The translations under genes and the position numbers were made by a program. A DNA stretch of 64,000 nucleotides from Pedobacter sp. BAL39. GTDB taxonomy: Bacteria; Bacteroidota; Bacteroidia; Sphingobacteriales; Sphingobacteriaceae. The stretch lies in NCBI RefSeq assembly GCF_000170795.1, contig NZ_ABCM01000017.1, forward strand, positions 1-64,000, read 5' to 3'. Positions 8,034 to 57,417 of this stretch are shown in pieces; within the stretch, counting starts at the first letter, position 1; every line of letters begins with the position of its first letter. The notes under the pieces are model-generated. The model searched no databases. It was given only the letters and a program-made list of their open reading frames with translations, and had not been told where the DNA came from.

Positions 8034-8058
8034 AAAAAAGAAAAATGCCTTTAAAAGT

Positions 8059-8095
8059 AAAAAAGCCTTATTTCTGATTGAAATAAGGCTTTTTT
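8059..8095. terminator. Bidirectional terminator between prpD and tRNA-Phe copy 2
   Basis: Perfect 16-bp stem AAAAAAGCCTTATTTC (8059-8074) and its complement (8080-8095) with a 5-nt loop, flanked by T-tracts on both strands. It can end the plus-strand prp operon and the minus-strand tRNA. It differs from the 4033-4066 hairpin mainly in the loop. Confidence 0.87.
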
Positions 8096-8097
8096 AC

Positions 8098-8173
8098 TGG
8101 TGGTGCCAGCTGGAATCGAACCAGCGACACAAGGATTTTCAGTCCTTTGCTCTACCGACTGAGCTATGGCACC
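8098..8173 (-). tRNA. tRNA-Phe (GAA), copy 2
   Basis: Identical in all 76 bases to the tRNA at 4069-4144, with encoded CCA and anticodon GAA. Same orientation as copy 1, placing the prp operon between two direct tRNA repeats 4029 bp apart. Confidence 0.97.
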
Positions 8174-53282: not shown

Positions 53283-54641
<1,359 letters not shown>

Positions 54642-54655
54642 GAAGTTTAAGTTCT

Positions 54656-54731
54656 AAAAAAACCAATACTCTTTTCGTCCTCAAATCTTTGAAGAAAGAT
54701 TTGCATGTCCTTAAAGAGCATTGGTTTTTTT
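54656..54731 (+). terminator. Terminator of eno, with an embedded repeat in its loop
   Basis: Outer stem: 54656-54674 pairs with 54713-54731 (19 bp, one mismatch) with a T-run at the end. The apical 54676-54710 is a second hairpin (AAATCTTT/AAAGATTT) and is a copy of the element at 57051-57086. The outer stem alone makes a good terminator 14 bp past the eno stop. Confidence 0.8.
54676..54710 (-). repeat. 35-nt palindromic element, copy A
   Basis: On the minus strand it reads GGACATGCAAATCTTTC then TTCAAAGATTTGAGGACG. The plus-strand copy at 57051-57086 is the same with two substitutions and one extra C. Each forms a CAAATCTTT...AAAGATTTG hairpin. The match ends sharply at both element borders. 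Confidence 0.8.
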
Positions 54732-55363
54732 ATGCCCAAAAATTCAGCAATAGCGAGTGTATCAACAGGTCAGATATTGTGACAGCGTTACCTTTTACTT
54801 CTTTTATGATCATGTTTCATTGACGGTTTTTCATTTTCTTCTACCCTAATGAAAGCATCTTCATGTGCCATCAGCATTTCAGGCCATATAGCATGTTCCG
54901 CCAAATTCTTGTTTTAAGGTCACAGGTTGTGACCTCAGACTATCCAGCTCCTTTATTCATTTTAAACATAAGTTGTCCGGAAAACGCGTCGTATTATCTG
55001 TTTCAATGAATTTACAGGTGTCTATGCCACACCACTTTGTGAGGTCAATGTCCAGCACTATTTTAAGGTCCGGGACCATGTAAATCTTATTCACTAATAC
55101 CTCGTCAGGTGCAACAATTATTACCCTAAATACCTGGTATAAGGTATAAACAGCCGACATGAACAAGACCGAAACTAGCCCATTGTTATATAAAAGAGCA
55201 GATAAGTCCACATTGAGTCCACCTTAATAACGCGTTGAGAACAGATATTTATGAGAAAAGGTGGAGTCAACATAAATTTTAAATCTAATTACTATTGATT
55301 TATTCAAAAATCTCTGTATATTCGCTCAAAGAGTACTCTATATTAATCTAAAACCTTAAGTAT
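54732..55363. other. Gap in the eno-divIC accessory segment
   Basis: About 630 bp with no confident gene. A minus-strand open frame of 84 codons (54957-55211) encodes a hydrophobic start and an Ile/Leu-rich middle, but lacks a family match and start context, so I treat it as uncertain. No insertion sequence ends or integrase are seen. The region right before 55364 should hold the promoter of the next gene. Confidence 0.35.
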
Positions 55364-56626
55364 ATGGGAAGGCTAGAGAACAAAACAATTGTAGGTGCGG
55401 TGGGGCCTGTCACCTTTAGTAGATGGCGAGGCAAGGCTGTGGTGAAGGCTCGAGTAATGAAAGGCGACATCAGGCAAACCGATGCGACAAAAAATGCGGC
55501 GACGGTATTTGGTATAGCCAGTTCGTTCGGTGCAAATCTGCGGGATAACATGCGCGAGATTCATTTTATTCAGGATGGAACAGCGGTGAATCGAATGAAT
55601 AAAGAAACCTGTGCAATTTTGAGAAAACATCGGGATGCATCGACGGGAGACTTTCATTTTCAGCCCGATGCTTTTAAACCAATAGAAGGCTTTGAAATGA
55701 ATCAAAATTCTCCGATGAGGGAGAACTTCCTGGCTATGCCTGAAGTAAGCCTTCAGAATGGCAAACTCCTAGTCAGGATACCGGAATTTGCGGTCAACAA
55801 AACGCTTAAATTCCCCCGTGAGGCAGATTCCTGCACCATCATTATATCGGTATACATTGCCTCGCTAAAGACAAAAGACGAGTGTATGATGGATGGAGAC
55901 ATGACTGAGACTTTCAATATAGACAGACATCAGCAGAGTTTTCCATCTACGGAATGGTCTTACGACATTCCAGAAGGCTGTTTCTGCGTAACCAGCATGG
56001 CATTACATTTTCATACGCAACATTCCAATCTGCAGGTATATCTGAACAACAAATCTTTCTGTCCGGCCATGATCTGTGATTTCAGTATTAATCCAGGTGA
56101 ATTTAAGGACAAGCCTAAAAAATGGATGACAACAAATTTTGCTTTTGAAGACGGCGCGCATCCACCGATAAAGAAGAAAACAAAAAAGAAACAAAACCCC
56201 ATCGTTATAAAGTCAGATCAAAAGAATGCCAAGACTAAAAAAATAGCGCATGCTAAAAAGAAGACCTCAAAGAAAAAGTCTAATAACGAGGTGCCTGCTC
56301 CTTGCTTAACCTCTCAGGATCAACTGCTTCAGTATCTGGAAATACAGCAGCAGCAAAACGAAGCCTTGCAGCAGCAAGTAAAGGAATTACAGGTTCAACT
56401 TGCCGAATTGAAAAACCTCGTCAGCGACTCCAAAGCATCGATAAAACCTTCTGCAGCTCAAAACATAGCTTGTACCGTTATAATGCAGGCCAACCTGCTA
56501 AATATTGTCAAACCAGACGGTTTCCCAATAATGCCGACAATAAGCGTAACTACATCTGCACAACGAATTCCAGATAAATTATTGGATTCATTTAATCATA
56601 AAAACCGCGGAAAACCCGCCGCCTAA
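55364..56626 (+). CDS. Unknown protein, DUF6266-like N-terminus with Lys-rich linker and coiled coil
   Basis: A 420-residue cytoplasmic protein that I do not recognise fully. Its N-terminus (MGRLENKTIVGAVGPVTFSR, then WRGKAVVKAR) has the Gly-rich start seen in DUF6266-like proteins of Sphingobacteria. Residues about 70-265 form a beta-rich region (EGCFCVTSMALHFHTQHSNL). Residues about 270-310 are almost all Lys with Thr/Ser, and 315-360 is a Gln-rich coiled coil (QQQNEALQQQVKELQVQLAE). The gene lies between eno and divIC in a segment bounded by the inverted 35-nt elements, and the 81-bp tandem repeat begins 40 bp after its stop. The basic linker could contact nucleic acid; no enzymatic motif is seen. 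Confidence 0.7.
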   Translation: MGRLENKTIVGAVGPVTFSRWRGKAVVKARVMKGDIRQTDATKNAATVFGIASSFGANLRDNMREIHFIQDGTAVNRMNKETCAILRKHRDASTGDFHFQPDAFKPIEGFEMNQNSPMRENFLAMPEVSLQNGKLLVRIPEFAVNKTLKFPREADSCTIIISVYIASLKTKDECMMDGDMTETFNIDRHQQSFPSTEWSYDIPEGCFCVTSMALHFHTQHSNLQVYLNNKSFCPAMICDFSINPGEFKDKPKKWMTTNFAFEDGAHPPIKKKTKKKQNPIVIKSDQKNAKTKKIAHAKKKTSKKKSNNEVPAPCLTSQDQLLQYLEIQQQQNEALQQQVKELQVQLAELKNLVSDSKASIKPSAAQNIACTVIMQANLLNIVKPDGFPIMPTISVTTSAQRIPDKLLDSFNHKNRGKPAA

Positions 56627-56665
56627 AACCTGACGACCTGTTATTACGTCTCCACATCAATGCTG

Positions 56666-57041
56666 TTCACACCGCGCTGTTGAAAATGCTCTAGGGTTTG
56701 GTCATGAGAAAATATCTATTTATCTCACATTACCATTCTAACCCTGCATTCACACCGCGCTGTTGAAAATGATGTGGGTTTGGCAGTAAGAGAGTATCTA
56801 TCTTTTCCTCACATTACACTAACCCTGCATTCACGCCGCGCTATTGAAAATGCTGTGGGTTTGGCAGTAAGAGAGTATCTATCTTTTCCTCACATTACAC
56901 TAACCCTGCATTCACGCCGCGCTATTGAAAATGCTGTGGGTTTGGCAGTAAGAGAGTATCTATCTTTTCCTCACATTACACTAACCCTGCATTCACGCCG
57001 CGCTATTGAAAATGCTGTGGGGTTTGGTCATGAGAAAATAT
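56666..57041 (+). repeat. 81-bp tandem repeat array
   Basis: About 4.6 copies of an 81-bp unit beginning TTCACGCCGCGCTATTGAAA, with copy starts at 56666 (83 bp, diverged), 56749, 56830, 56911 and 56992 (partial). The copies starting at 56830 and 56911 are identical. The first and the last partial copy share GGTTTGGTCATGAGAAAATA, while middle copies have GGTTTGGCAGTAAGAGAGTA. The unit is a multiple of 3 and reads through as a 27-residue repeat in one frame, but no plausible protein is made there. Not a CRISPR: no variable spacers. Confidence 0.9.
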
Positions 57042-57050
57042 CTTACATGA

Positions 57051-57086
57051 GGACGTGCAAATCTTTCCTTCAAAGATTTGGGGACG
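57051..57086 (+). repeat. 36-nt palindromic element, copy B
   Basis: GGACGTGCAAATCTTTCC then TTCAAAGATTTGGGGACG. It is an inverted counterpart of the element at 54676-54710 and ends one base before a possible ATG (57088) of the divIC-like gene. Confidence 0.8.
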
Positions 57087-57117
57087 AATGGAAGATATTT
57101 TTGATATCTTTGTTGGT

Positions 57118-57417
57118 ATGGAACGTCTGCTGGAACTCATACGCAATAAATACTTCCTCTCTGTGGCAGCTTTTATTGTATGGATGTTATTCTTCGATAA
57201 GAACGACATGATTTCTCAATACGAGTACAGGTCTGTGGTGAACAAGCTGCAGGAAGAGAAGGACTTCTATGAGAAGGAGACGGCCCAGGTTAAAAAAGAC
57301 CTGAATGAGCTGAATTCGAACCTCAACACAGCAGAGAAGTTTGCGCGTGAAAAATACTTCATGAAGAAAGACAATGAGGATGTTTTCGTAATCGTGAAGG
57401 AAGCCCCGAAAGACTAA
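57118..57417 (+). CDS. DivIC/FtsB-like septum formation protein
   Basis: A 99-residue bitopic membrane protein: MERLLELIRNKYF, one helix (FLSVAAFIVWMLFFDKN, about 13-29), then a coiled coil (VVNKLQEEKDFYEKETAQVK) and a short C-terminal part (EKYFMKKDNEDVFVIVKEA). This is the shape of FtsB/DivIC in the divisome. Start choice: ATG at 57118 matches the usual family N-terminus and follows a TATCTTTG box by 6 bp; an in-frame ATG at 57088 would add 10 residues and has GGGG upstream. Its neighbour in many Bacteroidota is enolase, so the segment in between may be inserted. Confidence 0.85.
   Translation: MERLLELIRNKYFLSVAAFIVWMLFFDKNDMISQYEYRSVVNKLQEEKDFYEKETAQVKKDLNELNSNLNTAEKFAREKYFMKKDNEDVFVIVKEAPKD

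Follow-up and report, generated by a model that had tools for sequence, protein, structure and literature searches.

Inverted palindromes between eno and divIC in a Pedobacter genome are probably members of a gene-end hairpin family with a strongly conserved tip

What are the two palindromes that face each other around an orphan gene between eno and divIC in Pedobacter sp. BAL39? The question arose from the window, i.e., the whole 64,000-nt stretch of DNA analysed here, in which a sequence-only reading had noticed two near-palindromes of about 36 nt, inverted around an open reading frame (ORF) and a tandem array. We confirmed this arrangement, including the 420-residue protein and the 4.4 copies of an 81-bp unit that lie in between (Table 1). 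The inverted copies are 92% complementary over 24 nt (54674-54697 and 57065-57088) and 94% complementary over 18 nt (54694-54711 and 57050-57067), and in a gapped BLAST alignment of 39 nt the agreement between 54674-54711 and 57088-57050 is 92.3%. None of 100 shuffles of the window contained the inner part of the core. We argue below that both palindromes probably belong to a family of gene-end hairpins in Pedobacter whose tip is strongly conserved, rather than being the ends of a jumping element.

Table 1. Features of the eno-divIC locus (positions in the window; CM, covariance model, here R1 or R2).
Feature	Position	Strand	Evidence and remarks
eno (enolase)	53346..54641	+	Pfam Enolase_C, E 1e-132
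Hairpin member 1 (putative eno terminator)	54653..54735	- (model orientation)	CM E 5.3e-18; fold z -6.7; outer stem AAAAAAACCAAT..ATTGGTTTTTTT; conserved core ~54674-54711
Rest of the lineage-specific spacer, non-coding, without assigned feature	54736..55189	.	84-aa ORF without Pfam match
Upstream region common to paralogs	55190..55363	+	Paralog alignment, start of homology (BLAST)
ORF of the 420-aa orphan protein	55364..56626	+	One of eight own-genome paralogs
81-bp tandem array, 4.4 copies	56666..57043	+	Last unit enters the left arm of hairpin 2
Hairpin member 2	57026..57109	+ (model orientation)	CM 1.5e-13 (R1), 3.6e-10 (R2); fold z -3.4; core ~57050-57088, just 5' of divIC
divIC-like septum formation initiator	57118..57417	+	Pfam DivIC 2.1e-8 (longer ORF)

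The left copy had been placed in the loop of the eno terminator, and it does sit inside a stable hairpin, as does the right copy. The right copy had also been thought to end one base before the start of divIC. The likely start is instead the ATG at 57118, and not the one adjacent to the element: divIC matches came from 59 genomes of the 60 searched in the genus, the own one included, and they begin at 57118 in 58 of the 59 and two residues later in one. Repeat detection in the window places the 4.4 array copies at 56666-57027, and a second place for the array was not found among 145 genus genomes. Its unit is unstructured (fold z +0.46 to +0.83), which led us to reject a type III toxin-antitoxin reading of the array. 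The remainder of the spacer behind the first hairpin has no clear similarity to any relative's spacer, bar a 15-nt AT-rich antisense match of 54903-54917 to the spacer of G082, which is probably due to chance.

The two copies belong to a larger family. A MAFFT alignment of 14 copies, several of them orthologous, revealed a fixed core between flanks that vary from locus to locus yet pair with each other. Both sides have changed in 14 of the 20 outer pairs, a number reached in none of 500 shuffles, and 90.9% of the cells are paired, compared with 42.8-62.2% when slid. The covariance model built from this alignment (R1) gave 30 rows in the own genome, which reduce to 24 sites because six rows are the other strand of a site already found. 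We rebuilt the model on these sites (R2). In the resulting 24-site alignment, which is itself fitted to the model, 26 of 29 pairs have changed on both sides, 92.3% of cells are paired (43.3-59.4% when slid), and the covariation score is 0.583, against 0.168 when shuffled and at most 0.143 when slid. At E≤1e-6, R2 recovered 25 own sites: 23 of the 24 found by R1 and two new ones, both with the core. The further genome-wide copies that the sequence-only reading had suggested looking for thus exist, at 26 sites in 5.79 Mb. The copy before divIC forms 13 of 19 outer pairs only.

A typical member has an outer stem of about 20 bp, usually preceded by an A-run and followed by a T-run. A run of five T follows the hairpin at 22 of 24 own sites on one strand and at 20 of 24 on the other, and the fold z-scores of four own sites, the two of Table 1 included, are -6.7, -3.4, -6.5, and -7.2. 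CCTTC is central in 21 of the 24 own sites, and at 51 of 59 sites from three genomes GAAGG falls within the central 28 nt. By eye, the core takes several forms: one with a CCCTTCAGC loop, one with a CCTTC loop, one with GGAC/GUCC inner pairing, and a GCC/GGC form.

Of 145 genomes of the genus, R1 has matches in 41 at E≤0.01 (with a best E≤1e-6 in 33 of the 41) and none in 104; at most 31 candidates were scored per genome in this search, so that its per-genome counts are lower bounds. With R2 we counted 17 matches in G081, 20 in G082, 22 in G114, 22 in G118, 13 in G093, and 6 in G078, two sites being counted on both strands. Weak scores can be ordinary terminators: the model gives 29.3 bits to window positions 8055-8098 and still 33.7 bits to the plain, core-less eno terminator of G014. 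Beyond the genus, a strict pattern that misses most hairpin forms matched one of 59 genomes from 24 genera, which was the own one. A scan of named genomes for an 18-nt core returned 14 stretches, 3 of them in Pedobacter; the others are single scattered matches that we take as chance.

We analysed the placement of 59 sites, 24 from the own genome (G000), 22 from G118, and 13 from G093, relative to ORFs of at least 90 aa, with sites common by descent counted per genome. The orientation table of the own genome took in 24 of its 26 sites; the two sites found by R2 only were read for the core alone. Convergent genes flank 40 of the 59 sites; the flanking genes are both on the + strand at 13, both on the - strand at 4, and divergent at 2. 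A stop codon lies at most 60 nt from 41 of them, and relative to the nearest gene with such a stop, 37 of these 41 point the same way. The neighbours of own sites include eno, a valyl-tRNA synthetase, and S9 peptidases, and, named by eye only, polA-, ychF-, and aroC-like genes. It had been stated that the insertion hypothesis would suffer if the element were an ordinary UTR hairpin elsewhere. This is largely what we see, as most copies are solitary at the 3' ends of ordinary genes, but the hairpin itself is unusual. The '-' orientation of the model, which is the gene's strand in 37 of the 41 cases, folds less stably than the opposite strand at 42 of 59 sites and more stably at 16. This weighs against a simple role as RNA.

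The comparison with relatives shows how the eno-divIC locus looks elsewhere. We used 29 relatives' divIC loci, taken from the search of 60 genus genomes, and counted distances from the last aligned eno residue. The two genes had been said to be common neighbours in the phylum, and eno is indeed within 1.5 kb of divIC in 27 of the 29 loci, at 82-330 bp in 26 and at 1242 bp in one; L035 and L041 have no eno within that distance. The window spacer is long, but it is not alone in being variable. A site without the segment had also been sought, and four close relatives provide it: the spacing is 272 bp in G081, 270 in G082, 270 in G118, and 261 in G114, and the covariance model finds in each one core-bearing hairpin, directly behind eno. 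G078 has a diverged hairpin at the same place (43.8 bits). A second hairpin before divIC was not seen in the 31 relatives' loci inspected. Differing palindromic stretches occur just behind eno among the relatives' loci L028-L056, e.g., GTCATTCTGAGCTTGT.. in L050 and L052.

The proposal that the 2.4 kb are an insertion holds in part: the stretch is lineage-specific and relatives have compact alleles, but it does not look like a clean split. A plain terminator, ACATCCGGAG..CTTCGGATGT, is present further along the spacer in G081, G082, and G078, and also in many core-less relatives; it is missing from the window spacer. The spacer thus appears to have been exchanged from the eno hairpin up to the divIC promoter, and not split by a clean insertion. 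For a target-site duplication, the nearest relatives found for comparison are only about 85% identical in eno.

The inverted arrangement of the two copies also has counterparts. Where two copies are less than 5 kb apart, the (-,+) order prevails: it was counted in 14 of 17 such pairs from six genomes. Eight of the (-,+) pairs are 207-226 bp apart, all of them between convergent genes with one hairpin per gene, and they represent two loci by descent. These short pairs are the own hairpins of each convergent gene and are therefore explained without mobility; close inverted pairs in relatives are often the twin terminators of tail-to-tail genes. This explanation leaves the own genome partly unexplained, because none of its three (-,+) pairs is a plain tail-to-tail twin: around the C31 and C23 pairs all genes share one strand, and in the C33 pair the right copy has divergent genes on its two sides. 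The divIC-side copy stands 400 nt behind the orphan gene in an unusual orientation. In addition, own copies are clustered, with four neighbour pairs less than 5 kb apart, which 28 of 20,000 random draws reach when contig breaks are ignored.

It had been proposed to test whether copies elsewhere in the genome flank other variable segments. There are extra genes between inverted copies at other loci, but most copies stand alone. One case is the locus between S9- and C1-peptidase genes. Here, two inverted hairpins surround divergent-gene pairs in G118 (1961 bp, one pair) and in G114 (3474 bp, two pairs). In the two gene pairs tested, the + gene encodes a family-2 glycosyltransferase and the - gene belongs to no Pfam family. 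One can see the tandem character by comparing L173 (5299-6947), with one divergent-gene pair between the inverted hairpins, and L174 (5910-9155), with two. The same locus has one hairpin in G081 (148 bp), one hairpin and a remnant of a second, AACGATGTGCTTTAAGGACATCGTT, in G082 (304 bp), and one hairpin in the own genome (362 bp), where a second copy lies beyond the C1-peptidase gene. The hairpins behind the S9 peptidase are orthologous in five genomes, in which the outer stem differs and the core is kept. In the own genome, the inverted copies on C23 (L190, 4454-5181) enclose a DUF6364 gene followed by a PIN-domain gene, a toxin-antitoxin-like arrangement, and are followed by the gene of valyl-tRNA synthetase. 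Hairpin-bearing gene borders may thus be tolerated landing places for genes.

Taken together, we consider it likely that the 35-nt repeats are the cores of dispersed, two-way, intrinsic-terminator-like hairpins that lie mostly just behind stop codons, and that the left copy is an old eno terminator behind which the spacer was replaced. We hold this reading less firmly because no (-,+) pair of the own genome is tail-to-tail. The outer stem, which changes freely yet keeps pairing, would serve termination; together with the T-runs it most likely ends transcription in both directions. The core consists of an internal loop and an apical loop that, read along the usual direction of the gene, is mostly GAAGG. 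Its sequence is conserved, as is the way it faces the nearest gene, and the most likely reason is that a putative factor recognises it, either as an RNA 3' end or as DNA. In the lineage of BAL39, the spacer behind the eno hairpin would have been replaced by one that comprises the orphan gene, its promoter region, the tandem array, and the second hairpin before divIC.

A rather unlikely alternative is that the core is a REP-like or other mobile palindrome that settles in gene-end terminators, so that inverted copies mark an insertion hotspot. One observation in its favour comes from G124 (L168-L172, C5:345000-435000), where about 82 kb contain 22 copies that all point the same way (7 further rows are opposite strands). 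The six copies read in L172 have common outer stems and a common flank (AACATCAATTATTTCCAGAACACGTC...), and solo right halves occur. This looks like a local proliferation of the motif, as expected from spreading DNA. The clustering in the own genome and its three pairs outside tail-to-tail contexts fit the same idea, as do the different palindromic stretches seen by eye behind eno in several relatives and a core-less eno terminator of G035 with a similar CCAATGC/GCATTGG stem. However, the eno and S9-peptidase sites are common by descent and their outer stems co-vary, and the proposed marking by REP-like elements lacks its enzyme: the profile of the REP-type Y1 transposase (PF01797) matched none of five genomes (G000, G124, G118, G127, and G093), whereas the control was positive in 5 of 14 known genomes. 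We also considered integron-like attC sites for the G124 cluster. These have their conserved part at the base of the stem, and the G124 copies are separated by genes that look ordinary and run in both directions; we rejected this candidate.

The orphan gene was the other candidate for mobility. Its product has a conserved N-terminal domain of about 260 aa and a variable, low-complexity C-terminal part that ends in RGKPAA in five of the eight paralogs of the own genome, and it has no match beyond weak ones among Pfam, NCBIfam, and PHROG families. Its N-terminus resembles that of DUF6266 (PF19781; GxVGxV..RG..V.R), without a Pfam match to that family (hhalign probability 4%, E 0.0099 against one profile); DUF6266 genes adjoin two own hairpins (L140:534-1373 and L141:1777-2613). 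The domain was predicted without an alignment at a mean pLDDT of 47. The family is present in 51 of 119 genus genomes, with one to seven copies in genomes other than the own one, and the search of named genomes with the paralog alignment gave 50 pattern stretches, none of which was confirmed. All eight paralogs have upstream 11-bp phased repeats of the TCCACnTTnAG type (TCCACGTTnAG type), by eye. These repeats, at window positions 55190-55363 and in L017-L023, look like an array of activator sites, perhaps of the LytTR kind. They are accompanied by a promoter-like box, TATTG..TAnnTTTG, also seen by eye, whose TAnnTTTG corresponds to the box consensus given for sigma-A in the part of PMC9723704 used here.

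Could the orphan gene and the second hairpin be one unit that copies itself around the genome? Close copies do occur: two paralogs (L018:3563-4992 and L019:3758-5190) share 98% identity along 1.43 kb, which begins some 190 nt before the gene and ends with the stop codon, the sequences on either side being unrelated. Those of L017 and L020 are 96% identical up to codon ~271 only and differ in their C-terminal parts. Downstream hairpins within 1.5 kb accompany three of the eight paralogs, at 16, 93, and 400 nt, and all three face the gene in the same way. Yet no hairpin was found within 1.5 kb of the four most similar paralogs or of any of the relatives' 29 loci of the family, and the N-terminal domain had no match in phage and plasmid collections, for which reason we also rejected the insert as phage or plasmid cargo. 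We consider such a self-copying unit clearly improbable. The remaining proposal, a non-autonomous mobile unit in which the 35-nt copies are the terminal repeats of 2.4 kb that moved together, draws on the sharp borders of the inverted copies, the absence of the segment in relatives, and the genes between inverted copies at the S9/C1 locus and on C23, but it is largely refuted and very improbable: the left copy is found at eno in five relatives without the segment (in G078 as a diverged form), the outer arms of the two ends are unrelated, most copies are solitary at gene 3' ends, none of the other seven paralogs is bracketed by two copies within 1.5 kb, and what encloses the extra genes at S9/C1 are the terminators of two convergent genes, which in the eight short pairs enclose only about 120 bp.

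Inverted palindromes around an accessory gene thus need not be a mobile element, as the twin terminators of tail-to-tail genes look alike. Terminators are normally free in sequence and constrained only in structure. Here, the stem is free, the tip is fixed, and its direction is fixed relative to the gene; this suggests that some factor in Bacteroidota reads 3' ends or the borders of genes. We tentatively suggest that the Pedobacter hairpins might form a new class, with a fixed directional recognition module set in freely evolving terminator stems. On housekeeping mRNAs this module could act as a docking site at the 3' end, or it could do so in the DNA where genes border on each other; such borders would be safe for accessory genes, and in one relative the module would have become a locally proliferating repeat.

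How does this family compare with known systems? With intrinsic (Rho-independent) terminators it shares a stable hairpin, a T-run, and the placement behind a stop codon, from which termination is predicted. MITEs and transposons have ends that occur only with their unit, which does not apply to the eno copy of G081, G082, G114, and G118. REP palindromes, associated with Y1/RAYT transposases, are dispersed imperfect palindromes between genes. The Pedobacter hairpins are likewise dispersed imperfect palindromes, but differ in that no Y1 transposase was found, in their placement at gene ends, and in their co-varying stems. Among RNA families, Rfam 15 was searched with window positions 52-60 kb and with 11 loci out of the 24 own ones; no match passed the gathering threshold, and four sub-threshold ones were to snoRNAs or miRNAs. 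Our search of titles and abstract openings found no published description of the core-bearing hairpin.

Three RNAs deserve comparison, as far as the parts of the sources used here describe them. Flavo-1 RNA (RF01705) is a Bacteroidetes motif without known function, scattered, and sense or antisense to transcripts (PMC2864571, PMC9723704); the Pedobacter hairpin, unlike it, has no Rfam match to RF01705. The L17 downstream element (RF01708) is similarly a conserved RNA structure in 3' UTRs, but it accompanies a single gene, in Lactobacillales and Listeria (PMC2864571), and is not among the Rfam matches of the hairpin. The GUCCY-hairpin is a candidate RNA of Bacteroidetes and Proteobacteria, listed without an Rfam number in the table of that paper (PMC2864571). 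Its host range and name fit: the window form has GUCC on both sides of the internal loop on the eno strand, whereas other Pedobacter forms carry AUCC and GUCUU instead. It may be the same motif, in a comparison by name and host range only.

The nearest described sequence-bearing terminators, judging from the portion of PMC1852404 on which we draw, are the uptake-signal terminators of Neisseria and Pasteurellaceae. In these, two complementary words of 9-11 nt form the hairpin and are generally repeated at least 1,000 times in a genome (PMC1852404). The likeness is that a conserved word recurs inside terminator hairpins at gene ends. The difference is that there the word forms the hairpin, whereas in Pedobacter stem sequences vary freely around a fixed inner core, at 26 sites.
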